Of a stretch of 64,000 nt of DNA, positions 23,478-61,825 are shown in pieces. The notes under the pieces were generated by a model. The model had not been told where the DNA came from. It saw only the letters and a list, made by a program, of their open reading frames with translations, and did not search any database. The translations under genes and the position numbers were made by a program. Source of the DNA: [Ruminococcus] torques ATCC 27756 (GTDB lineage Bacteria; Bacillota; Clostridia; Lachnospirales; Lachnospiraceae); assembly GCF_000153925.1 (NCBI RefSeq), contig NZ_DS264345.1, positions 248,001 to 312,000 of the forward strand, read 5' to 3'. Every line of letters starts with the position of its first letter. Position 1 is the first letter of the stretch.

Positions 23478-23540
23478 TCGGGCTCGGCATACGTTTGAAA
23501 GATAAACAGATAGAGAAGTATAGATTGCTCTTTGTACCGG

Positions 23541-23712
23541 ACTTTAGATAAGGTTAGGTTACTTTGAGATATCTGTGAGGAAGTCAGGTGAGAATCCTGC
23601 ACAATACCCGTTGCTGTATTGGAGGAGCGGTATTCCATATTGCCACTGCGGAATAAGATTCTGTGGGAAGGCGGAATATTTGCATCGATCCCTAAGTCAG
23701 AATATTCACTTT
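23541..23712 (+). promoter_or_regulatory. Cobalamin (adenosylcobalamin) riboswitch
   Basis: The conserved core elements appear in order: GGAAGTCAGGTGAGAATCCT (about 23579-23597), CCCGTTGCTGTA, the B12 box GCCACTG (23642-23648), TGGGAAGGC (about 23664-23672) and the closing CTAAGTCAG (23692-23700). Exact ends are approximate. It precedes cbiM by about 50 bases; a short hairpin (CCGTA/TACGG, 23722-23734) lies between the aptamer and the AAGGAGAGG ribosome binding site, with no T-run, which favours control of translation start. It should shut down cobalt import and probably the downstream operon when B12 is plentiful. Confidence 0.93.
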
Positions 23713-23760
23713 CAAATGAGTCCGTAGATTACGGGATTATGATCAAGGAGAGGAAAAAAC

Positions 23761-50839: not shown

Positions 50840-51880
50840 ATGATGGAGTTAGTAACAGGAGGAAGCGGAAGCGGGAAATCCGCGTATGCAGAAGACAGGA
50901 TCTGCGCATTGTATGAAGAATACCGTAAGACAGGAAAGAAGGAACAAAAGCTGTATTATATAGCGACGATGTATCCGTATGGAACGGAAACAGAAGAGAA
51001 AATAGCCGACCACAGGAGACGAAGAGAAGGAAAAGGGTTTCGGACTCTTGAATGGTATACAAACATTACGGAAAAGATCCATCAGTTTGAAGCGTCCGGG
51101 GAGGCGCTTGGATGTGTTCTTTTAGAGTGCGTCTCTAATTTGGCTGCGAACGAATTATATATGGAAGAAGGGGCGAAAGACGAGGCTGTCCGGGTTGTTG
51201 CGCAAGCCATGGCAATGTTGAAAAAGAAAAGTTGTCATCTTGTTGTTGTGACAAATGAAATCTTTTCGGAATCGGCAAAAGATTCGGAAGAGATGAGAAA
51301 GTATAAGTATATTATGGGAGAGATCAACAAAGAGCTTGCGAAGATGGCAGATGAAGTGACTGAAGTCGTCTGCGGAAGACCTCTCAGAAGAAAAGTAAAG
51401 ACCGCGGAAGATAAAACTGCATGCGGGAATACAAGACGGAATGAAGGGAACGAAAGACAGATGAAGACGGCAAAGTGTGAAATGTCCTGCGGCAAAATGA
51501 AAAGAGGAATCAGGATCGTGACAGGGGGAGCGTTTCAGGGAAAGAAAAACTACGCGCAGTTATGCTATCCGGGACTGAAATGGAGCAGCGGAGCGGACTG
51601 TAGTTTCGAGGATGTCAAAACATGGGAGGCTGTAGATGGGTTTCATCTTTTTATATGGCGCTGGCTGAAATCAGGAAGAACAAAAGAAGAACTGTTAGAA
51701 ATGATAAGCGAAGAGAGAGATCTTGTTATCGTGTGTGACGAGATCGGGTGCGGTCTGGTTCCGGTTGATGCGTTTGAGCGTGAGTACAGAGAGGCAGTCG
51801 GAAGAATTATGACCGGTTTGACTAAAAAGGCAGTTCGGGCAGACCGCGTGATCTGTGGGATCGGATATGTTATAAAATGA
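50840..51880 (+). CDS. cobU: CobU with a second, degenerate CobU-like domain
   Basis: 346 residues. The first ~190 are CobU, the adenosylcobinamide kinase/guanylyltransferase: P-loop GGSGSGKSAYAE, IADHRRRREGKGFRTLEW (His-Arg motif that takes GMP), LLECVSNLAANELY, VVVTNEIFSESAKDSE. A Lys/Arg/Cys-rich linker (about 195-218) is followed by a second, shorter copy: RIVTGGAFQGKKNYAQL, VIVCDEIGCGLVPVDAFEREYREAVGRI, ADRVICGIGYVIK. In that copy the P-loop GxxGxGKS has become GGAFQGKK, so ATP binding is doubtful. First gene of a three-gene B12 operon. Confidence 0.9.
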   Translation: MMELVTGGSGSGKSAYAEDRICALYEEYRKTGKKEQKLYYIATMYPYGTETEEKIADHRRRREGKGFRTLEWYTNITEKIHQFEASGEALGCVLLECVSNLAANELYMEEGAKDEAVRVVAQAMAMLKKKSCHLVVVTNEIFSESAKDSEEMRKYKYIMGEINKELAKMADEVTEVVCGRPLRRKVKTAEDKTACGNTRRNEGNERQMKTAKCEMSCGKMKRGIRIVTGGAFQGKKNYAQLCYPGLKWSSGADCSFEDVKTWEAVDGFHLFIWRWLKSGRTKEELLEMISEERDLVIVCDEIGCGLVPVDAFEREYREAVGRIMTGLTKKAVRADRVICGIGYVIK

Positions 51881-51922
51881 AAAGAAACACTGAAAACGAT
51901 CAAAGAAAAGGAGGAAAAGAAG

Positions 51923-52570
51923 ATGTTGACAGAGATAGAAAAGGTGCTTCCGTCGGAGATTGAGAAAAGAAGTTTTGAGATCATTGCGGAAGAACTGGGG
52001 GATAAGCAGTTGATTCCGGGAACGGAATCGATCGTGAAAAGATGTATCCATACGAGCGCTGATTTTGATTATGCGGATAATCTTATTTTTTCGGAAAATG
52101 TAGTTGAAAAGGCGCTAAAAGCAATCCGCGGCGGAGCGTCTATTGTGACAGATACACAAATGGGAAAAGCGGGGATCAATAAAAAATGTCTTGCCGGCTA
52201 TGGTGGAGAGGTATATTGCTTTATGTCGGATGACGATGTGGCGCAGGCGGCAAAAAGAAACAAAACAACACGGGCGGCCGCGAGTATGGATAAGGCGGCA
52301 AAATTAGGGGAGCAGGTAATCTTTGCCATCGGAAATGCTCCGACAGCGCTTGTGCGTTTATATGAGCTGATCAAAGAGGAAAAGATCGCCCCGGAACTTG
52401 TGATCGCGGTTCCGGTCGGATTTGTCAATGTTGTACAGTCAAAAGAATTGATCTTAAGTCTTGAAAATACTCCGTATATTGTTGCGAGAGGACGAAAAGG
52501 CGGCAGCAATATTGCGGCATGTATATGTAATGCACTTTTGTACATGGGAGACGGAGGAAAAAGAGAATGA
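51923..52570 (+). CDS. cbiC: Cobalt-precorrin-8 methylmutase CbiC
   Basis: 215 residues. Signatures: EIEKRSFEIIAEELG, KRCIHTSADFDYADNLIFSE (the active-site His), GASIVTDTQMGKAGINK, FAIGNAPTALVRLYEL and VPVGFVNVVQSKELIL. It moves a methyl group from C11 to C12, giving cobyrinic acid. AAGGAGGAAAAGAAG precedes the ATG. The stop overlaps the next gene by 4 bp. Confidence 0.96.
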   Translation: MLTEIEKVLPSEIEKRSFEIIAEELGDKQLIPGTESIVKRCIHTSADFDYADNLIFSENVVEKALKAIRGGASIVTDTQMGKAGINKKCLAGYGGEVYCFMSDDDVAQAAKRNKTTRAAASMDKAAKLGEQVIFAIGNAPTALVRLYELIKEEKIAPELVIAVPVGFVNVVQSKELILSLENTPYIVARGRKGGSNIAACICNALLYMGDGGKRE

Positions 52571-53040
52571 AAAAGCCGTATTTTCCGATGTTTGTTGATC
52601 TTTCGGGCAGACAGGTTACTGTAGTGGGAGGGGGCAGTGTTGCGCTTCGCCGATCGGAGACGCTGCTTTATTTCGGCGTGGATATTAAAGTGATCGCGCC
52701 GGAGATCAGAAGTGAGTTTTATCGTCTGGATTCCGAAGGAAAAGTTGTTTTGTGTAACAGAGAATATCAGGAAGGGGATGCAAAAGGAGCAGATCTTGTG
52801 ATCGCCGCATCAAACTGTCGGGAAGTAAACCGCCGTGTGTATGAAGAGTGTCAAAAAGCACATATTCCGGTCAACACGGCAGACGACAGAGAGTTGTGTG
52901 ACTTTTATTTTCCGTCTGTCGTATTGGCAGAAGATATTGTCATCGGACTAAATTCCATAGATCACGATCCGAAGAAAGTGAAAGAAGCGAGAAAGATTAT
53001 TGAAAATGTGTTTGATAATGAACGAGATTACCGTTCCTGA
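52567..53040 (+). CDS. Precorrin-2 dehydrogenase (SirC/CysG N-terminal type)
   Basis: 157 residues, the NAD-binding half of siroheme synthase only. PMFVDLSGRQVTVVGGGSVALRRSETLL (Rossmann GxGxxA-like), LVIAASNCREVNRRVYEEC and NTADDRELCDFYFPSVV are typical. It oxidises precorrin-2 to sirohydrochlorin, the CbiK substrate. It lacks the C-terminal dimer/chelatase extension of Met8p-like enzymes, so it is probably a dehydrogenase only. Confidence 0.92.
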   Translation: MKKPYFPMFVDLSGRQVTVVGGGSVALRRSETLLYFGVDIKVIAPEIRSEFYRLDSEGKVVLCNREYQEGDAKGADLVIAASNCREVNRRVYEECQKAHIPVNTADDRELCDFYFPSVVLAEDIVIGLNSIDHDPKKVKEARKIIENVFDNERDYRS

Positions 53041-53351: not shown

Positions 53352-53846
53352 ATGGCAGAGAAAAAGGCGACTGTTCCTTTCTCGGGAACAAAAGAACAGG
53401 AAGAAGCACTCATGAAAGTAATCCATGAGCTAAAAGATGAAAAAGGGGCGCTGATGCCGATCTTGCAGAAAGCGCAGGATATATATGGGTATCTTCCGAT
53501 CGAAGTTCAGAAAATGATCTCAGACGAGACAGGTATTCCGATGGAGAAGATCTATGGAGTGGCAACATTTTATTCACAGTTCACATTGAGTCCGAAAGGA
53601 AAATACAGGATTTCCGTCTGTCTTGGAACGGCATGTTATGTAAAAGGATCGGGAGATATTTACAATGCTTTGATGGAAAAGTTAGGTATTGTCGGCGGAG
53701 AATGTACGCCGGACGGAAAGTTTTCTCTTGATGCGTGCCGATGTGTCGGAGCATGCGGATTAGCTCCTGTTATGATGATCAATGACGAAGTATACGGACG
53801 TTTGACAGTAGATGATCTGGATGACATTTTAGCGAAGTATGAATAA
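53352..53846 (+). CDS. Hydrogenase subunit HymA/HndA (NuoE-like, [2Fe-2S])
   Basis: 164 residues, NuoE/thioredoxin-like ferredoxin fold. The [2Fe-2S] ligands are in SVCLGTACYVKGS and LDACRCVGACGLAPVM (C-x4-C ... C-x3-C). A helical N-terminal part (LMPILQKAQDIYGYLPIEVQKMI) is typical. It is the small subunit of a trimeric [FeFe] hydrogenase, carrying electrons between NAD(H)-FMN and the others. GGAGGTTGAAGA precedes the ATG. Confidence 0.94.
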   Translation: MAEKKATVPFSGTKEQEEALMKVIHELKDEKGALMPILQKAQDIYGYLPIEVQKMISDETGIPMEKIYGVATFYSQFTLSPKGKYRISVCLGTACYVKGSGDIYNALMEKLGIVGGECTPDGKFSLDACRCVGACGLAPVMMINDEVYGRLTVDDLDDILAKYE

Positions 53847-53929
53847 TGCGGACATCAAAATCCCGGATAATATGAAAACGGGAATATGATACTTATTGAT
53901 TTTAGAAAAACAGGAAATGGAGGAGTTAT

Positions 53930-55849
53930 ATGAAATCTCTTGAACAATTACATGAGATCTGTGAGCGGATGCGTAAAGTCGTGCAGCTTAGAGAAGAGAA
54001 TGCGAAAGAAATACTTGAGAAAGCCGCAATGTGTGAAAGCGGAAAAGATGCCGATGGAAATACATACCGCACGCATGTGCTTGTCTGCGGCGGAACCGGA
54101 TGTACGTCTTCCGGAAGCGCCCGGATCAGAGAGAGACTGGAAAAAGAGATCGAAGCGAACGGATTGTCCGATGAAGTCTGTGTTGTTAAGACAGGTTGTT
54201 TCGGCTTGTGTGCGTTAGGCCCGATCATGATCGTATATCCGGAAGGAACGTTTTATTCTATGGTTCAGGAAGAAGATATTCCGGAGATTGTGACAGAACA
54301 TCTGCTCAAAGGAAACGTGGTAAAGCATCTGCTTTATGAAGAGACTGTAAAAGCAGATAAGATCATTCCGTTAAACGAGACGAATTTTTATAAAAAACAG
54401 CACAGAGTCGCTCTGCGAAACTGCGGTGTCATCAATCCCGAAAAGATCGACGAATATATCGGAACAGGCGGATACGAAGCGCTCGGTATTGTTCTGACGG
54501 AAAAGAAGCCGGAAGATGTGATTCAGATTCTTTTGGACAGCGGGCTTCGCGGCAGAGGCGGAGCAGGATTCCCGACAGGGTTAAAATGGAAGTTTGCGGC
54601 AGGAAATGACGCAGATCAAAAATATGTCTGTTGTAATGCGGACGAAGGAGATCCGGGAGCATTTATGGATCGTTCGATCTTAGAGGGAGATCCTCATGCG
54701 GTTCTTGAAGCAATGGCGATCGCCGGATATGCGATCGGAGCATCCCAAGGCTATATTTATGTTCGTGCAGAGTATCCGATCGCCGTGCAGCGTCTTGAGA
54801 TTGCGATCGAACAGGCAAGAGAGTACGGTCTGCTCGGAAAAAATATTTTCGATAGCGGATTTGACTTTGATATTGAATTAAGGCTTGGAGCAGGCGCGTT
54901 TGTCTGCGGAGAAGAGACGGCTCTTATGACTTCTATAGAAGGAAACAGAGGAGAGCCGCGTCCGCGTCCGCCGTTCCCGGCGCTGAAAGGCCTGTTTCAA
55001 AAACCGACAATTTTAAATAACGTGGAGACGTATGCCAATATCCCTCAGATTATTGTGAACGGACCGGAGTGGTTCGCTTCGATGGGAACGGAAAAATCAA
55101 AAGGAACGAAAGTATTTGCTCTCGGCGGAAAGATCCATAATACAGGACTTGTAGAAATTCCGATGGGAACGACGCTTCGCGAGATCGTAGAAGAGATCGG
55201 CGGAGGAGTGCCAAACGGAAAGAAATTCAAAGCTGCTCAGACGGGAGGCCCGTCAGGAGGATGTATCCCTGCAGAACATTTAGATATTCCGATCGATTAC
55301 GATAATCTGCTTTCAATCGGTTCAATGATGGGTTCCGGCGGTTTGATCGTCATGGATGAAGATACTTGCATGGTCGATATCGCGAAATTCTTCCTTGAGT
55401 TTACGGTAGATGAGTCATGCGGAAAATGTACTCCGTGCCGGATCGGAACACGCCGTATGCTTGAAATCCTTGAGAAGATCACAAAAGGTCAGGCAACGAT
55501 GGAAGATCTCGATAAGCTGGAAGAACTGTGCTATCATCTCCAATCAAATTCTCTGTGTGCGCTCGGACAGACGGCTCCGAATCCGGTGCTTTCGACTTTG
55601 AGATATTTCAGAGACGAGTATATTGCTCACATTGTAGATAAAAAATGCCCTGCCGGAGTATGTAAAGATCTCCTTCAATATAAGATCGATCCGGATAAAT
55701 GTAAAGGTTGTACGCTCTGTGCGAGAACCTGTCCGGCAGATGCGATCATCGGTAAAGTAAAAGAAGTGCATATGATCAATCCTGAAAAATGTCTCAAGTG
55801 CGGAGCTTGTATGGAAAAATGCCGCTTCGGAGCAATTTACAAAGAATAA
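53930..55849 (+). CDS. Hydrogenase NAD-binding subunit HymB/HndC (NuoF-like)
   Basis: 639 residues. Order: N-terminal thioredoxin-like [2Fe-2S] part (VCGGTGCTSSGSA, KTGCFGLCALGPI, residues about 45-110); NuoF core with the FMN/NADH motif GLRGRGGAGFPTGLKW, CNADEGDPGAFMDR and the N3 cluster site SCGKCTPCRIGTRRMLE; and a C-terminal two-cluster ferredoxin (CKGCTLCARTCPADAI, CLKCGACMEKCRFGAI). It binds NAD(H) and FMN; trimeric relatives bifurcate electrons between NADH and ferredoxin. AATGGAGGAGTTAT precedes the ATG. Confidence 0.95.
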   Translation: MKSLEQLHEICERMRKVVQLREENAKEILEKAAMCESGKDADGNTYRTHVLVCGGTGCTSSGSARIRERLEKEIEANGLSDEVCVVKTGCFGLCALGPIMIVYPEGTFYSMVQEEDIPEIVTEHLLKGNVVKHLLYEETVKADKIIPLNETNFYKKQHRVALRNCGVINPEKIDEYIGTGGYEALGIVLTEKKPEDVIQILLDSGLRGRGGAGFPTGLKWKFAAGNDADQKYVCCNADEGDPGAFMDRSILEGDPHAVLEAMAIAGYAIGASQGYIYVRAEYPIAVQRLEIAIEQAREYGLLGKNIFDSGFDFDIELRLGAGAFVCGEETALMTSIEGNRGEPRPRPPFPALKGLFQKPTILNNVETYANIPQIIVNGPEWFASMGTEKSKGTKVFALGGKIHNTGLVEIPMGTTLREIVEEIGGGVPNGKKFKAAQTGGPSGGCIPAEHLDIPIDYDNLLSIGSMMGSGGLIVMDEDTCMVDIAKFFLEFTVDESCGKCTPCRIGTRRMLEILEKITKGQATMEDLDKLEELCYHLQSNSLCALGQTAPNPVLSTLRYFRDEYIAHIVDKKCPAGVCKDLLQYKIDPDKCKGCTLCARTCPADAIIGKVKEVHMINPEKCLKCGACMEKCRFGAIYKE

Positions 55850-55863
55850 GGAGGGCAGAGAAG

Positions 55864-57606
55864 ATGGGAAATGTGAATTTAAAGATCAATGGTTTAAATG
55901 TGACAGCGCCTGCCGGCTCTACGATCCTTGAAGCGGCACAGGCTGCGGGAATTAAGATACCGACTTTGTGTTATTTAAAAGAGATCAATGAGATCGGCGC
56001 CTGCCGTATGTGCGTCGTGGAAGTAAAAGGCGCAAGAAATCTCGTGGCATCTTGTGTACATCCGGTTGCAGAAGGGATGGAAGTGCAGACGAATACGCCG
56101 AAACTTCTTGATTCGAGAAGAAGAACATTAGAGCTGCTTTTGTCGAATCATGACAAAAAATGTCTGTCTTGTGTCAGAAGCGGGCAGTGTGAACTTCAAG
56201 AGCTTTGTCAGGAACTCGGAGTGACAGATGAAAATTACTTCGAGGGCGAGACAACACATTATGAATTGGATGAAAGCGCGGTTCATATGGTGCGGGATAA
56301 CAACAAATGTATCCTTTGCCGGAGATGTTCTGCCGTCTGTGAAAAAGTGCAGAGCGTAGGAGTGATCGGACCGAACAACAGAGGATTTGCCACGTTTATC
56401 GGCTCTCCGTTCGAGATGGGACTGGGAGATACAAGCTGCGTCGGCTGCGGACAGTGTATCGCGGCATGTCCGACGGGCGCGCTCTACGAAAAGAGCAATA
56501 TCGACGACGTTCTTGCCGCTATTGCGGATGAGACAAAACATGTTGTAGTACAGCCTGCTCCGTCGGTGCGGGCGGCTCTTGGCGAAGAATTCGGTTATCC
56601 GATGGGAACAGACGTAGAAGGAAAGATGGCTGCGGCTCTTAGAAGGATCGGATTTGATAAAGTATTCGATACAAATTTCAGTGCAGACCTTACGATTATG
56701 GAAGAAGCTCATGAATTTTTAGACAGAGTGAAAAACAAAGGAGTCCTTCCGCTTATGACGTCATGCTCACCCGGATGGGTAAAATATTGCGAGCATTACT
56801 ATCCGGATCAGCTCGATCATCTTTCAAGCTGCAAATCACCGCAGCAGATGTTCGGAGCGATTACGAAAACATATTATGCGGAAAAGATGAACATTGCGCC
56901 TGAAGATATTGTCTGCGTCAGCGTGATGCCGTGTACGGCGAAGAAGTTTGAAATCCAAAGAGAAGATCAGGACGCAGGCGGCGTTCCTGATGTAGATATT
57001 TCGATCACGACAAGGGAACTTGCACGCCTGATCCGTAAAGTCGGAATTAATTTCCGCAGTCTTCCGGATGAAGGATTCGACGATCCGCTCGGAGAATCTA
57101 CAGGAGCGGGAGTGATCTTCGGCGCAACAGGAGGCGTTATGGAAGCGGCTCTTCGTACCGCAGTGGAAGAACTGACAGGCGAGACGCTTGAGAAAGTAGA
57201 ATTTACAGAAGTTCGTGGAACAGAGGGAATCAAAGAAGCGGTTTACAACGTAGCAGGAATGGATGTGAAAGTCGCCGTTGCTTCCGGACTTTCCAATGCG
57301 AAGATTATCATGGATAAAATAAGAGCTAAAGAGGCGGACTATCATTTTGTTGAGATCATGTGCTGTCCTGGAGGATGTGTCAACGGCGGCGGTCAGCCTC
57401 AGGTGCATGCGGATGTGCGTAATTTTGAAGATGTAAAGGCAATTCGTGCAAAGGTACTTTATGATAACGATGCCGCAAAAACATTGAGAAAATCTCATGA
57501 GAATCCGTCCATCAAACGGGTTTACAGCGAATATCTCGGCGAACCGGGAAGTGAGAAAGCGCATCATATTCTTCATACAACATATGTAAAACGTACAGTG
57601 AATTAA
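55864..57606 (+). CDS. [FeFe] hydrogenase catalytic subunit HymC/HndD
   Basis: 580 residues from ATG at 55864 (AAGGAGGG about 8 bases upstream). Plant-type [2Fe-2S] (CYLKEINEIGACRMCVVE), His-Cys3 [4Fe-4S] (HDKKCLSCVRSGQCELQELC), two [4Fe-4S] (CILCRRCSAVC, CVGCGQCIAACPTGAL), then the H-cluster motifs: L1 MTSCSPGWVKYCEHYYPDQ, L2 VMPCTAKKFE, L3 EIMCCPGGCVNGGGQP. L1 is TSCSP rather than TSCCP; the H-cluster ligand Cys is kept. A C-terminal small-subunit-like tail completes it. Forms or consumes H2 with HymA and HymB. Confidence 0.95.
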   Translation: MGNVNLKINGLNVTAPAGSTILEAAQAAGIKIPTLCYLKEINEIGACRMCVVEVKGARNLVASCVHPVAEGMEVQTNTPKLLDSRRRTLELLLSNHDKKCLSCVRSGQCELQELCQELGVTDENYFEGETTHYELDESAVHMVRDNNKCILCRRCSAVCEKVQSVGVIGPNNRGFATFIGSPFEMGLGDTSCVGCGQCIAACPTGALYEKSNIDDVLAAIADETKHVVVQPAPSVRAALGEEFGYPMGTDVEGKMAAALRRIGFDKVFDTNFSADLTIMEEAHEFLDRVKNKGVLPLMTSCSPGWVKYCEHYYPDQLDHLSSCKSPQQMFGAITKTYYAEKMNIAPEDIVCVSVMPCTAKKFEIQREDQDAGGVPDVDISITTRELARLIRKVGINFRSLPDEGFDDPLGESTGAGVIFGATGGVMEAALRTAVEELTGETLEKVEFTEVRGTEGIKEAVYNVAGMDVKVAVASGLSNAKIIMDKIRAKEADYHFVEIMCCPGGCVNGGGQPQVHADVRNFEDVKAIRAKVLYDNDAAKTLRKSHENPSIKRVYSEYLGEPGSEKAHHILHTTYVKRTVN

Positions 57607-57617
57607 AAAGTCCGAGA

Positions 57618-57710
57618 AACAACTGATCTTAGTTGTTATGGACCGCGCTGTTACTATATGTCAAATATTTTATAACACAGGGAAGTCTTTTAGATTTTCC
57701 TGTGTTATAA
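57618..57710 (+). terminator. Two hairpins after the hydrogenase operon
   Basis: AACAACT/AGTTGTT (57618-57624/57631-57637) and a longer stem TTATAACACAGG/CCTGTGTTATAA (57670-57681/57699-57710) follow the hymC stop. The second is the likelier terminator, though its T-run is short, so read-through into the CPBP gene and the sensor genes is possible. Confidence 0.5.
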
Positions 57711-57821: not shown

Positions 57822-58787
57822 ATGGGATGGGATTGGCATAAGTTTCGGAAAGATACGGCATTTGCGACAAGAAATCTGGTCTGGTACACTTTGATCATGT
57901 CGGTTGTGACAGAGATGGTCTCCGCAATGGTTTCGGCATTGACGAAGACAGGCGGTTCGTCAGAGTCGCTTATTTCGGAGGTGACGGGAACGGCAGCTTC
58001 CGCAGGGATGATCGCAGGAGTTTTGATCGGAGTTTTCTGTCTTTTTAAGATTGACGGTACAAAAGCAGAAAAGATCGATATTTTCCAAAAATCGAAACGA
58101 AAGATGACAGCAGGCGCATTTTCAAGATTTTGCATCTACATGATCATGGCTCAGATGGTCTTTTCGTTGATCGCAGCAGCAGCGGAACTGATTTTGAATC
58201 AGTTGGGGCTTTCGATGGATACGCTGACAGAGCTTGCTTCGGTCGGTTCTGATATGGGGATTATGATGATGATCTATGCCGGATTCGTCGGACCGGTTGT
58301 GGAAGAACTCGTTTTCAGAGGATTTCTTATGAGACGGTTTGAAAAATATGGTAAAGGATTTGCGGTTATTGTCTCGGCAGTTTTGTTCGGTGTTATGCAC
58401 GGGAATCCGCTTCAGATCGTATTCGGAACGCTCGTGGGACTTATTTTAGGATATATAGCAATCGAATATTCGATAAAATGGTCGATCATCCTTCACATCG
58501 CGAATAACTTTATTCTCGGAGATGTGATCGGCGGCTTGTTCGGGCTGCTTCCCGATGATGTGGAAGGGATTGCGTTTACTGTATTTTTAGGTATCGGTTT
58601 TGTGATCGGTTTCGTTCTTCTGATTATAAGAAGAAAAGAGTGGATTAGCTGGCTGAAAGAAAACGCTGCGCCCGGGAGTTATTATCTTAATGCTCTTACA
58701 ACGCCTTCGGCAGTGATCTTTATCGGTTATAATCTGTTGAACGGGCTGATGCTTTTGACGCTGATATTTATGGAACCGTTTTTGTGA
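57822..58787 (+). CDS. CPBP-family intramembrane protease-like protein
   Basis: 321 residues with about eight membrane segments. The CPBP/Abi motifs are present: GPVVEELVFRGFLMRRFEKYG (EExxxR, about residues 164-184), FGVMHGNP (second motif His) and LHIANNF (third motif His). These form the metal-free glutamic-type site of Rce1-like proteases. Role unknown; family members process peptides or protect against bacteriocins. It lies between the hydrogenase and its putative sensor. Confidence 0.88.
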   Translation: MGWDWHKFRKDTAFATRNLVWYTLIMSVVTEMVSAMVSALTKTGGSSESLISEVTGTAASAGMIAGVLIGVFCLFKIDGTKAEKIDIFQKSKRKMTAGAFSRFCIYMIMAQMVFSLIAAAAELILNQLGLSMDTLTELASVGSDMGIMMMIYAGFVGPVVEELVFRGFLMRRFEKYGKGFAVIVSAVLFGVMHGNPLQIVFGTLVGLILGYIAIEYSIKWSIILHIANNFILGDVIGGLFGLLPDDVEGIAFTVFLGIGFVIGFVLLIIRRKEWISWLKENAAPGSYYLNALTTPSAVIFIGYNLLNGLMLLTLIFMEPFL

Positions 58788-58818: not shown

Positions 58819-60528
58819 ATGAAAGTCATTGATTTTAAAGATGCAAAATGCCGTCATTGTTATAAATGCGTACGAAACTGCGCGGTAAAAGCGATCAGTG
58901 TCAAAGACGAGCAGGCGCGCATTATGGTCGATCATTGTATCAACTGCGGGCGCTGTCTGGAAGTCTGTCCGCAGAACGCAAAAACATTTGCAAGCGATCT
59001 GGAAAGAGTGAAAGGATATTTGGCACAAGGGTTTAAAACGATCATATCGATCGCTCCGTCCTATGCGGGAGTTCTTGATTTTGATCAGCCGGGGCAGGTC
59101 GTGGACGCGCTTTTGAAACTTGGATTTTATGAGGTGAGAGAGACTGCGGAAGGGGCGGCTCTTGTGACAAATGAATATAAAAAACTTGTGCGGGAAAATG
59201 AGATGCCGAATATTATTACGACATGCTGTCCGAGTGTGAACGATCTGATCGAAAAATATTATCCCGACTGCGCGAAGTATATGGCTCCTGTCGTATCGCC
59301 GATGGTAGCCCACGGCAGATATATTAAGAAAATATACGGATCGGATGTGAAAGTTGTATTTTTAGGTCCGTGTATCGCGAAGAAGCAGGAGGCGATCGGA
59401 GACGAGAGAGTATTCGGCGCGGTCGATGCGATCCTGACATTTGAAGAGCTGGCAGATTGGTTCGCCGAAGAAGGGATTGATCTTCGTCAATGCGAAGAGA
59501 AACCGATGGGGAACCCTGATCCTAAGATCAACAGACTCTATCCTGTCAGCGGAGGGGTGATCCAGTCTGTGATCACAGAGGAAGATGCAGACGGATATCA
59601 TAAAGTATTTGTAGACGGACTGGAAAACTGTATGGAGATGCTGGAATGTCTAGGAAAGGGAGAACTGGATCATTGCTTTATCGAGGCGAACGTCTGTGAA
59701 GGCGGATGTGCGAAAGGACCTGCGTCGGCACATTGGAACACATCTTATGTAAAGACAAAAGTAAAAATAGAAAACGGAGTTTCTTATAAGGCGGCGCGTG
59801 ATCTTCCGGATATGACGGCGGAAGAACTGCACAAAGAGTTTAAAGACTGTAGTCTTTCAGATGCGATGCCGTCCGAAGAACAGATCCGTCATATTTTGAA
59901 ATCTACCGGAAAATATTGTGCGGAAGACGAACTGAACTGCGGGGCATGCGGATATTCTACATGCAGGGAAAAAGCGGTCGCAGTCTTTCAGGGAAAAGCG
60001 GAATTGTCTATGTGTATGCCTTATGCATTGACACAGGCAGAGTCGATGTCTAATGTCGTGATGGATGTGACGCCGAATATGATCTTTGTCATCGGAAGCG
60101 ATATGAAGATATTAGACTGCAACAGGAAAGGGCAGGATCTTCTCGGAGTCGGACGGGAGGAAGCGGTACAACGGTATATTTTTGAATTTATCGAGACAGA
60201 GGATATTGAAGAAGTGCTGGACACGAAAAAACCGGTGATGCATAAAAAGATCAAGATTGATAATGACAGGCTGACAGTGGAAGAGACGATCGTATACATT
60301 GACAATCTGGATGCCGCTTTGGTGACATATCAAGATGTGACGCGGGAAGAAAAAGTGAGGGAACAGCATTATAAGCTGAAAGTCGGAACTGTGGAAATGG
60401 CGCAGAAAGTGATCGAAAAGCAGATGATGGTCGCCCAGGAGATCGCGGGGCTGCTTGGCGAGACAACGGCAGAGACGAAAGTTACATTGACGAAATTGAG
60501 AGACTCGATATTGAATGAAGAAGATTAA
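58819..60528 (+). CDS. PAS-containing sensory [FeFe] hydrogenase (HydS/HfsD-like)
   Basis: 569 residues. N-terminal two-cluster ferredoxin (CRHCYKCVRNCAVKAI, CINCGRCLEVCPQNAK), then a group C-type H-cluster domain: L1 TTCCPSVNDLIEKYYPD, L2 FLGPCIAKKQE, L3 EANVCEGGCAKGPA. All four H-cluster Cys are in place but the surroundings differ from the catalytic HymC. A further Cys motif follows (LNCGACGYSTCREKAVAVFQGKAELSMCMPY, about 373-403), then a PAS domain (about 408-520) and a C-terminal helical tail. The build suggests an H2/redox sensor that signals through PAS to the phosphatase encoded next. AGGAGGTATGAGGA precedes the ATG. Confidence 0.92.
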   Translation: MKVIDFKDAKCRHCYKCVRNCAVKAISVKDEQARIMVDHCINCGRCLEVCPQNAKTFASDLERVKGYLAQGFKTIISIAPSYAGVLDFDQPGQVVDALLKLGFYEVRETAEGAALVTNEYKKLVRENEMPNIITTCCPSVNDLIEKYYPDCAKYMAPVVSPMVAHGRYIKKIYGSDVKVVFLGPCIAKKQEAIGDERVFGAVDAILTFEELADWFAEEGIDLRQCEEKPMGNPDPKINRLYPVSGGVIQSVITEEDADGYHKVFVDGLENCMEMLECLGKGELDHCFIEANVCEGGCAKGPASAHWNTSYVKTKVKIENGVSYKAARDLPDMTAEELHKEFKDCSLSDAMPSEEQIRHILKSTGKYCAEDELNCGACGYSTCREKAVAVFQGKAELSMCMPYALTQAESMSNVVMDVTPNMIFVIGSDMKILDCNRKGQDLLGVGREEAVQRYIFEFIETEDIEEVLDTKKPVMHKKIKIDNDRLTVEETIVYIDNLDAALVTYQDVTREEKVREQHYKLKVGTVEMAQKVIEKQMMVAQEIAGLLGETTAETKVTLTKLRDSILNEED

Positions 60529-60530
60529 AG

Positions 60531-60593
60531 GTAACAGTTCAGCCATGATAAGCACGTAGTGCGGTTTTACGAATGGCGCGGTTGAACTGTTAC
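60531..60593. repeat. Structured palindromic element between sensor and phosphatase genes
   Basis: Perfect 11-bp inverted repeats GTAACAGTTCA (60531-60541) and TGAACTGTTAC (60583-60593) enclose a second stem GCCAT/ATGGC and an inner GCAC/GTGC hairpin. The nested shape has no T-run, so it is not a simple terminator. It may be a dispersed intergenic repeat, an RNA processing site or a translation control element for the phosphatase gene 57 bases downstream. Confidence 0.5.
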
Positions 60594-60649
60594 GATTAAA
60601 GATGAAACAGATGAAAGTCAGAAAAAAGAAGTAGGACGGAGAGAGGTTC

Positions 60650-61825
60650 ATGAGTGTAAGTATTGATGTAGCTTGGAAGAGTTTGAATAAACATCACGAA
60701 GAATTGTGCGGAGATAAAGTAGAAGTGTTAAAGACGGACGATTCCGATATACTGATCCTTGCAGATGGGATGGGAAGCGGTGTGAAGGCGAATATTCTGG
60801 CGACATTGACGTCGAAAATTCTCGGAACGATGTTATATGAGGGGGCGGCGTTGGAGTCGTGTGTAGAAACGATTGCAAAAACGCTTCCGATATGTCAGGT
60901 GAGAAAGGTGGCGTATGCGACATTTTCTGTTTTGCAGATCTTTCACAGCGGTGAGGCGTATCTTGTAGAGTTTGACAATCCGTCCTGTGTGTTTATCCGT
61001 GATGGGAAGATTGTGAACTATGCATATGAAACCCGCGAGATCGAGGGAAAAAAGATACATGAATATCGGTTTCAAGTACAGAAAAACGATTGCTTTGTCC
61101 TGATGAGCGACGGTGTGATCTATGCCGGAGCGGGATCGATTCTGAACCTTCAGGGATGGACGTGGGAAGCGATGGCGGAGTATACGCTTAAATGTACGAA
61201 AAAGACGATGTCTGCGTCCCGTCTGGCAGTTATGTTAAGTCAGGCATGCGACGAACTGTATGAAGAAAAACCGGGAGACGATACGACAGTTGCGGTTGCA
61301 CGCGTGATTGACAGAAGAATTGTAAATGTTTTTACAGGACCGCCGAAAGAGAAAAAAGATGACGAGCGGATGATGTATGAGTTTATGCATACGGAAGGAA
61401 AGAAAGTTGTGGCAGGAGGAACGAGCGCTAATATTGCGGCGCGTATCCTCGGAAAAGAGATTGTCACAAAGGTGGACAGCCGTAATCCCGATATTCCTCC
61501 GATGGCAGTTATAGAAGGAATCGATCTTGTGACGGAAGGAGTGCTTACTCTCGGAAAATGCATAAAGCTTTTGAAAAAATATGTAAGAGATGAGTTCGAT
61601 GCAGAATTTTTTGATGAGCTTGATGCGGAAAACGGAGCGTCTAAGCTGGCAAAACTTTTGATTGAAGAATGTACGGAACTGAATCTGTTCGTAGGAACGG
61701 CTGTGAATGACGCCCATAGAGAGTCGGAACTGAACTTTGATCTGAGTATGCGGCAGAATCTTGTAGAACAGCTTGTTTCTACAGCAGAAAAAATGGGAAG
61801 AAGAGTAAAAGTAAAGTATTATTAA
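60650..61825 (+). CDS. SpoIIE/PP2C-type phosphatase of the hydrogenase sensor locus
   Basis: 391 residues. Residues 1-225 are a PP2C/SpoIIE phosphatase domain: DILILADGMGSGVKANILA (metal-binding Asp), FVLMSDGVIYAGAG and EKPGDDTTVAVARVI (Asp pair). The C-terminal ~160 residues (GPPKEKKDDERMMYEFMHTEGKKVVAGGTSANIAARILGK...) are shared with phosphatases that sit beside [FeFe] hydrogenase sensor genes. It probably acts on a phosphorylated regulator according to the state of the PAS/H-cluster sensor encoded before it. GGAGAGAGGTTC precedes the ATG. Confidence 0.9.
   Translation: MSVSIDVAWKSLNKHHEELCGDKVEVLKTDDSDILILADGMGSGVKANILATLTSKILGTMLYEGAALESCVETIAKTLPICQVRKVAYATFSVLQIFHSGEAYLVEFDNPSCVFIRDGKIVNYAYETREIEGKKIHEYRFQVQKNDCFVLMSDGVIYAGAGSILNLQGWTWEAMAEYTLKCTKKTMSASRLAVMLSQACDELYEEKPGDDTTVAVARVIDRRIVNVFTGPPKEKKDDERMMYEFMHTEGKKVVAGGTSANIAARILGKEIVTKVDSRNPDIPPMAVIEGIDLVTEGVLTLGKCIKLLKKYVRDEFDAEFFDELDAENGASKLAKLLIEECTELNLFVGTAVNDAHRESELNFDLSMRQNLVEQLVSTAEKMGRRVKVKYY

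Follow-up and report, generated by a model that had tools for sequence, protein, structure and literature searches.

The window analysed here is a stretch of 64,000 nucleotides (nt) from [Ruminococcus] torques ATCC 27756, at positions 248001-312000 of contig C39 in a genome of 2.7 Mb. It contains hydS, which encodes a PAS-linked [FeFe] hydrogenase (HydS), and next to it a gene for a SpoIIE/PP2C-type Ser/Thr phosphatase. The two genes probably encode a phosphatase-linked sensory [FeFe] hydrogenase pair of group C (C3) that signals via the phosphatase to a protein encoded elsewhere. A preliminary description of the same DNA proposed an H2/redox-sensing pair. This proposal stands as the best reading, with the status of a published working hypothesis (PMC5037454, PMC6776011), and is backed by gene linkage and by fusions of related hydrogenases to sigma-54 activators and an MCP domain. 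The pair is a further member of a known and already classified kind.

Linkage and domain architecture

Even sampling of the class gave 291 genomes, in which 83 full-length phosphatases were found. HydS directly precedes 79 of these on the same strand, and the match ends are -2 to 124 nt apart. Conversely, 84 of the 85 retained HydS rows adjoin a phosphatase, whole or partial; this count kept HydS rows with frames of 479-615 amino acids (aa) and excluded sigma-54 fusions, group B matches and fragments. Among the exceptions, a HydS piece ends just upstream of the phosphatase on the same contig in genome G108, the phosphatase of G248 is on broken contigs, and in G096 the two genes are ~15 kb apart inside one hydrogenase cluster. 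Because the linkage is nearly constant, HydS and the phosphatase form a unit. When 80 loci and the window were read as 81 sources, 75 gave a phosphatase open reading frame (ORF), with HydS just upstream in 70 of those; the six loci without a phosphatase call and the five without an upstream call reflect, at least partly, contig ends and greedy ORF choice. One locus (L098) has two reverse ORFs between the positions of the pair. A variant arrangement occurs in G040 (L055:6288-10071), where two tandem PAS-hydrogenase genes precede a single phosphatase.

The preliminary description reported a PAS-linked hydrogenase with all H-cluster cysteines and a further cysteine cluster, and these features are borne out by domain searches and alignment. 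Each HydS domain is matched by at least one model over its cut-off, and 16 cysteines (8 N-terminal, 4 in the H-cluster and 4 C-terminal) are invariant in 67/67 aligned HydS. The alignment holds 67 of 70 sequences, those over 540 aa, from the window and from loci around related phosphatases. The H-cluster cysteines of the window protein are C137, C185, C293 and C297, and the C-terminal cluster is formed by C374, C377, C382 and C399, whose spacing (Cx2Cx4Cx16C) is identical to that quoted in PMC8163306. Positions of the CpI enzyme were mapped by motif and by alignment to the C. pasteurianum hydrogenase. At the position of CpI M353, Gly is found in 65 of 67 HydS, and Asn is found at that of M497 in 63. 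Judged from the alignment, these replacements resemble second-sphere changes reported for sensory enzymes; the M353 position is Gly in ~51% of sensory sequences (PMC10055695).

Outside the cluster motifs, few stretches of the 67 HydS proteins are as well conserved as residues 529-556, whereas conservation in the PAS domain is low. Given this difference, the C-terminal segment, which is putatively helical, would be the first region to consider as the site where HydS contacts the phosphatase.

HydDB describes group C3 as phosphatase-linked (putative) and possibly H2-sensing via Ser/Thr phosphatases (PMC5037454). Our placement follows the published HydDB definition (PMC5037454) of an H-domain, a C-terminal cluster plus PAS, and an adjacent phosphatase. 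The pair shows the four H-cluster cysteines, a C-terminal [4Fe-4S] motif and then PAS, and the phosphatase gene alongside, and no tested feature separates it from group C3. Against the model for monomeric group B enzymes (TIGR04105), HydS scores 210.5 bits, under the curated cut-off of 450, and possession of a PAS domain sets it outside group D (M2e), which is defined by the absence of PAS.

Longer relatives of HydS carry outputs within the same chain. We scanned 12 such proteins of 588-911 aa from the class search, and in ten of them (L052, L056 and L150-L157) hydrogenase and Fe-S domains are fused to a sigma-54 activator. Most of these fusions contain PAS; L056 has none, and in L152 none was found at the threshold used. 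In another relative (L158:557-2320, 588 aa) the hydrogenase domain is joined to an MCP signalling domain, which puts the idea of HydDB group C2 into one chain. A tree of 35 hydrogenases places the ten sigma-54 fusions in a separate clade (99/99) and the window HydS in a group of 18 rows (90/93); three more distant phosphatase-linked proteins lie outside that group. By analogy, homologous modules that drive known outputs support a sensing role for HydS; they are no proof that H2 is the signal. The sigma-54 fusions may themselves be candidate one-protein H2-responsive transcription factors. In the literature that we searched they turned up only in a domain list, in which clostridial sigma-54 activators with hydrogenase and Fe-S domains are in print (PMC6615313).

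The phosphatase and its C-terminal domain

The gene following hydS had been described as encoding a SpoIIE-type phosphatase, in agreement with its match to PF07228 and with the predicted fold of residues 1-222, which matches SpoIIE and RsbX. The structure matches are 3pu9_A (Z 25.0, root-mean-square deviation (rmsd) 2.9, 220 residues aligned) and 5ucg_A (Z 24.6, rmsd 2.6, 213 aligned). Conservation was assessed among frames of 330-470 aa carrying a DGxGSGx[KY]AN motif, of which 124 were found and 109 are distinct. D22, D39, D154, D210 and D211, which we take from knowledge of the family to be metal-binding, are present in all 109. Fold and Asp motifs place the protein in the SpoIIE/PPM kind, and phosphatase activity is predicted.

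Beside D22, in an LCGD motif, position 20 is Cys in 108 of the 109 distinct phosphatases, and the SpoIIE of the R. torques genome has ISGD at this place. The sole exception is a Ser in the G121 protein, from a genome in which no HydS was found; this is a single case and not a correlation.

The C-terminal domain is not covered by known families. Among 39 members, the best Pfam E-value is 0.0068, to unrelated families, and comparison with PDB sequences gave nothing better than E 0.28. When predicted alone, the domain gives a confident model with a mean predicted local distance difference test score (pLDDT) of 91.4 and a predicted template modelling score (pTM) of 0.87, and Foldseek searches of PDB and BFVD found no match at E<=1e-3 (best E 0.083). 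A profile of the domain matches in 86 of the 291 genomes, and the matches listed, judged by the length and position of their frames, all lie in the ~390-aa phosphatase or its fragments. The earlier statement that the domain is typical of this context thus holds, and on this distribution the domain is dedicated to the phosphatase of HydS-type loci. One genome (G081:C5:4844-4984) retains a 46-aa remnant of the domain near a match to a group B-like hydrogenase; the match crosses a stop codon, and this genome has apparently lost the HydS-phosphatase pair.

Structure comparisons gave no assignable kinship for the C-terminal domain. The best VIA structure rows are domains of FwdB, FhcB and NuoG (Z 8.8-7.3, rmsd 2.8-3.7, 110-123 residues), including 6s6y_B (Z 8.8, rmsd 2.8, 113 aligned) and 8om1_G (Z 7.3, rmsd 2.8, 110 aligned); a Z of 7-9 is too weak to assign a fold, and the likeness may be a common arrangement. 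Rows for methylglyoxal synthase (Z 5-6) and the others listed are weaker still. The whole phosphatase aligns over residues 2-383 to an RsbU-RsbW protein (3ke6), and kinship with RsbW was not accepted because 3ke6 is not among the 50 matches listed for the C-terminal domain alone.

Invariant residues of the domain stand at or after four strands (fragment numbering): P8 after strand 2-6, GG33-34 after 28-32, TEG72-74 at the end of 70-72, and G126 after 120-125. In the model, this placement at strand ends resembles that in ligand-binding alpha/beta folds, and a ligand may be bound there. A more elaborate scheme, which we regard as somewhat unlikely, would make the phosphatase a two-input switch, in which HydS reports H2 or redox state, the C-terminal domain binds a metabolite, and Cys20 adds redox- or HydS-dependent control. 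The invariant GPP, GG, TEG and G/N residues lie at or directly after strands that, in the predicted structure, would line a pocket. If this scheme were true, the phosphatase would integrate hydrogen and a metabolite on a clostridial fermentation target.

Signal, output and alternative readings

In the mechanism that we favour, HydS would respond to H2 or to the redox poise that governs the H-cluster state, and would pass the change on through its C-terminal [4Fe-4S] segment and its PAS domain as far as the conserved segment near the C-terminus. This segment would bind and switch the partner phosphatase, which would dephosphorylate a Ser/Thr-phosphorylated protein from another locus and so adjust hydrogenase and fermentation output. 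HydS probably restrains the effect of the phosphatase, which is the simplest sign by analogy with hfs mutants of Thermoanaerobacterium. In that system HfsB is the PAS hydrogenase, HfsC a serine phosphatase and HfsD a ferredoxin-linked hydrogenase (PMC11837493). The preliminary description named "HydS/HfsD" as sensory relatives; HydS can be kept, but HfsD should be replaced by HfsB. Deletion of hfsA or hfsB directs flux to ethanol and raises the adhE transcript two- to threefold, whereas deletion of hfsC or hfsD directs flux to lactate with no significant change in adhE; deletion of hfsA, hfsB or both lowers H2 more than the four-gene deletion does (PMC5707799). The favoured mechanism also draws on Ruminococcus albus, where the transcripts of a cluster with a sensory hydrogenase fall 111-fold in co-culture and a Ser/Thr phosphatase is described as belonging to that system (PMC6776011).

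Several observations weigh against a sensory pair. At the position of CpI C299, whose Cys carries protons in catalytic enzymes, 62 of 67 HydS have Cys, compared with only 17% of sensory sequences (PMC10055695). Both methionines are lost in the HydS branch but the proton-carrier Cys is retained, so turnover is possible, which counts against a sensor that is unable to turn over. The C-terminal cluster of a group D enzyme, TamHydS, is not reduced by H2 (PMC13104023), which speaks against simple relaying of electrons. The role of group C3 is called putative by HydDB (PMC5037454) and by a 2022 review, and our literature search found no experiment showing directly that a group C3 enzyme senses H2. 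In G121 the phosphatase gene is convergent with hymABC and no HydS was detected at E<=1e-40, a negative that rests on at most four scored candidates per genome and on an 18-kb stretch that was read. Proximity of the pair to hymABC is not constant: only 22 of 75 sources have a nuoF-like hym gene in the flanks that were retrieved (<=10 kb). Finally, L159, one of the 12 longer relatives, shows no output domain and groups with the window HydS in the tree.

The output kinase or target was said not to be encoded at the locus, which is right, and the search for Ser/Thr kinases and anti-sigma partners that had been suggested found candidates only at a distance from the pair. Across the R. torques genome, PF00069 identifies three kinases: one is of the PASTA type and adjoins a PP2C gene, and the others belong to an FHA/PP2C cluster. 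PF13581 yields one stand-alone RsbW-type match, adjoined by the sole STAS match of the genome (contig C26), and three matches in frames of 476-503 aa. PF07228 finds SpoIIE, the phosphatase of the pair and the PP2C that neighbours the PASTA kinase. These genome-wide family searches, which did not include HPr kinase and the like, found no dedicated kinase or anti-sigma partner, and none of the other matches is near the pair; there are no STAS or RsbW-type kinase genes among the seven window proteins scanned. Our literature search found no published signal route past the phosphatase for group C3 pairs.

The hym clusters of relatives can contain genes for a small RsbW-like ATPase (in 8 of 75 sources), for DRTGG proteins (in 13) and for PHP proteins (in 5). 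The gene order in G096 is phosphatase, DRTGG-like, RsbW-like ATPase, Fe-S protein, DRTGG-like, PHP and hym genes, where the two DRTGG-like proteins are named by sequence likeness only. A recurring hydrogenase accessory set of this kind was observed at L054:14894-19171, as a run of phosphatase, DRTGG-like, RsbW-like ATPase, 416-aa Fe-S-hydrogenase-like, DRTGG-like and PHP genes, and then hym genes. An ECF sigma factor (8 of 75 sources) and a ~490-aa protein (11 of 75) occur next to the pair, all in relatives with phosphatases 84-90% identical to that of the window, and are read as local synteny. Of the named relatives that were retrieved, the closest are Lachnospiraceae of the Mediterraneibacter type, whose phosphatases reach 90% identity.

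HydS might sense the general redox state, or another PAS ligand, and not H2, with the H-cluster equilibrating with the ferredoxin pool via the N-terminal clusters. The complete N-terminal ferredoxin-like relay and the behaviour of TamHydS fit this idea, as does the description of HfsB as possibly responding to redox potential (PMC11837493). However, the H-cluster cysteines kept in every aligned HydS would be needless for a mere redox relay, and we think this explanation unlikely. It is very unlikely that HydS serves mainly in catalysis and regulates little or nothing. The Cys at the proton-transfer position and the full set of cluster cysteines would suit catalysis, but the PAS domain, the conserved C-terminal segment, the near-obligate linkage to a phosphatase and the Met-to-Gly/Asn changes would not be expected of it, and the genome already has HymC-type and group B hydrogenases.

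Other alternatives concern the output. In one, the phosphatase would engage in partner switching of the RsbW type, together with the RsbW-like ATPase (~141 aa) and the DRTGG proteins encoded near hym genes in relatives; the gene run in G096 and the sources carrying the ATPase are suggestive of this. However, the ATPase has no match in the R. torques genome at E<=1e-20, and it occurs in 48 of 86 phosphatase genomes and is missing in the other 38; it is therefore not a general partner, and was rejected as an obligate one. Its co-occurrence with the phosphatase has an odds ratio of 1.6 (Fisher p 0.07, relatedness not corrected; G111 and G216 were excluded because only the catalytic domain matched there, in frames of 766-791 aa), and partner switching of this kind is highly improbable. 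It is also quite unlikely that the phosphatase acts post-translationally on a hydrogenase or fermentation enzyme, and not on a transcription route. The G121 phosphatase beside hymABC would fit such a role, and in hfs mutants the adhE transcript alone is insufficient to explain enzyme activities (PMC5707799). Pointing to transcription instead, although not shown to act via this protein, is the 111-fold transcript change in the cluster of the R. albus group C hydrogenase and its Ser/Thr phosphatase (Greening et al. 2019, PMC6776011).

A sensory pair that signals via its phosphatase would bear on a wider question, because H2 partial pressure influences how electrons are split among H2, ethanol and acids in gut and biofuel clostridia (PMC5707799, PMC6776011), and group C3 pairs are leading sensor candidates for this pressure. 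The dedicated phosphatase domain, the HydS C-terminal segment and the LCGD cysteine provide concrete handles for tests.

Genomic setting and known systems

The coordinates of the pair, its domains and its neighbours are collected in Table 1.

Table 1. Features of the hydS locus (positions in the window)
Feature	Position	Strand	Details
hydS (HydS, PAS-linked [FeFe] hydrogenase, group C3 type)	58819-60528	+	569 aa; ORF, domains, alignment, tree
N-terminal 2x[4Fe-4S] ferredoxin-like domain	58837-58980	+	residues 7-54; Fer4 families
H-cluster domain	59035-59721	+	residues 73-301; Fe_hyd_lg_C PF02906, E 7e-59
C-terminal [4Fe-4S] motif Cx2Cx4Cx16C	59938-60015	+	C374-C399; PF04060 (372-401), E 3e-11
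PAS domain	60064-60300	+	residues 416-494; PF00989 (416-478, E 3e-6), PF13426 (419-494)
Conserved C-terminal segment of HydS	60403-60486	+	residues 529-556; conservation across 67 HydS
SpoIIE/PP2C-type Ser/Thr phosphatase gene	60650-61825	+	391 aa; ORF, domains, structure match, alignment
Cys20-Gly-Asp22	60707-60715	+	Cys beside presumed metal-binding Asp motif
Catalytic domain	60749-61306	+	residues 34-219; SpoIIE PF07228, E 2e-16
Dedicated C-terminal alpha/beta domain	61319-61822	+	residues 224-391, ~165 aa; no Pfam family
Palindromic repeat copy between hydS and phosphatase gene	60530-60594	.	dispersed; 27 matching places in genome
CPBP (CAAX-type) protease gene	57822-58787	+	PF02517; 31-nt gap to hydS
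Hairpin after hymC	57670-57710	+	19 pairs; fold z -5.5
hymABC-type group A [FeFe] hydrogenase genes	53352-53846, 53930-55849, 55861-57606	+	domains of all three

As the preliminary description noted, the pair lies beside a catalytic hydrogenase, encoded by the hymABC-type genes at 53352-57606, with a hairpin and then the CPBP-protease gene between these and hydS. The HymC-like protein scores 919.7 bits against a cut-off of 765 in NCBIfam NF040763 (NADH-dependent, group A6). The hairpin is without a clear T-run and is absent from the output of the terminator scan; it may be the end of the hym transcript. hydS and the CPBP-protease gene are possibly co-transcribed. The gene after the phosphatase is on the minus strand (DUF6449). 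The group B hydrogenase of this genome (620 bits against TIGR04105) is on contig C40 and not beside the pair. Elsewhere, a further hydrogenase ORF lies <=1.5 kb downstream of the pair in 33 of the 66 sources with enough sequence, and all ten of these ORFs that were scored pass the group B model.

The repeat in the hydS-phosphatase gap is ~65 nt long and occupies about half of this unusually wide intergenic region. Eight copies were aligned, and their interior is strongly conserved; the 27 matching places include this one. No Rfam gathering threshold was reached by the repeat in a scan of the window. Also in the window are a cobalamin riboswitch at 23534-23727 (68 bits) and, just 5' of the hym genes, cobalamin/siroheme-biosynthesis-type genes at 50840-53040.

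The HfsB-HfsC genes of Thermoanaerobacterium share with the window the order of PAS-hydrogenase and then phosphatase. The Hfs operon has an HfsD-type hydrogenase downstream, whereas the window pair has none there and has hymABC upstream instead. The HydS cluster of R. albus likewise combines a sensory group C hydrogenase with a putative Ser/Thr phosphatase, but it contains a ferredoxin-only hydrogenase and an alcohol/aldehyde dehydrogenase, while the window pair adjoins a HymABC-type enzyme (NADH-dependent by NCBIfam). Thermotoga maritima HydS (TmHydS) has in common with the window protein the H-domain, C-terminal cluster, PAS and Gly at the M353 position; it differs in having Ala at C299 and Ser at M497 (PMC10055695), where the window HydS has Cys and Asn. 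The phosphatase shares the PPM/SpoIIE fold and Asp motifs with SpoIIE, RsbU and RsbX, and adds to them the C-terminal domain and the LCGD motif. Sigma-54 activators with Fe_hyd_lg_C have a homologous Fe-S/hydrogenase(-PAS) input, and carry their AAA+/HTH output in one chain.

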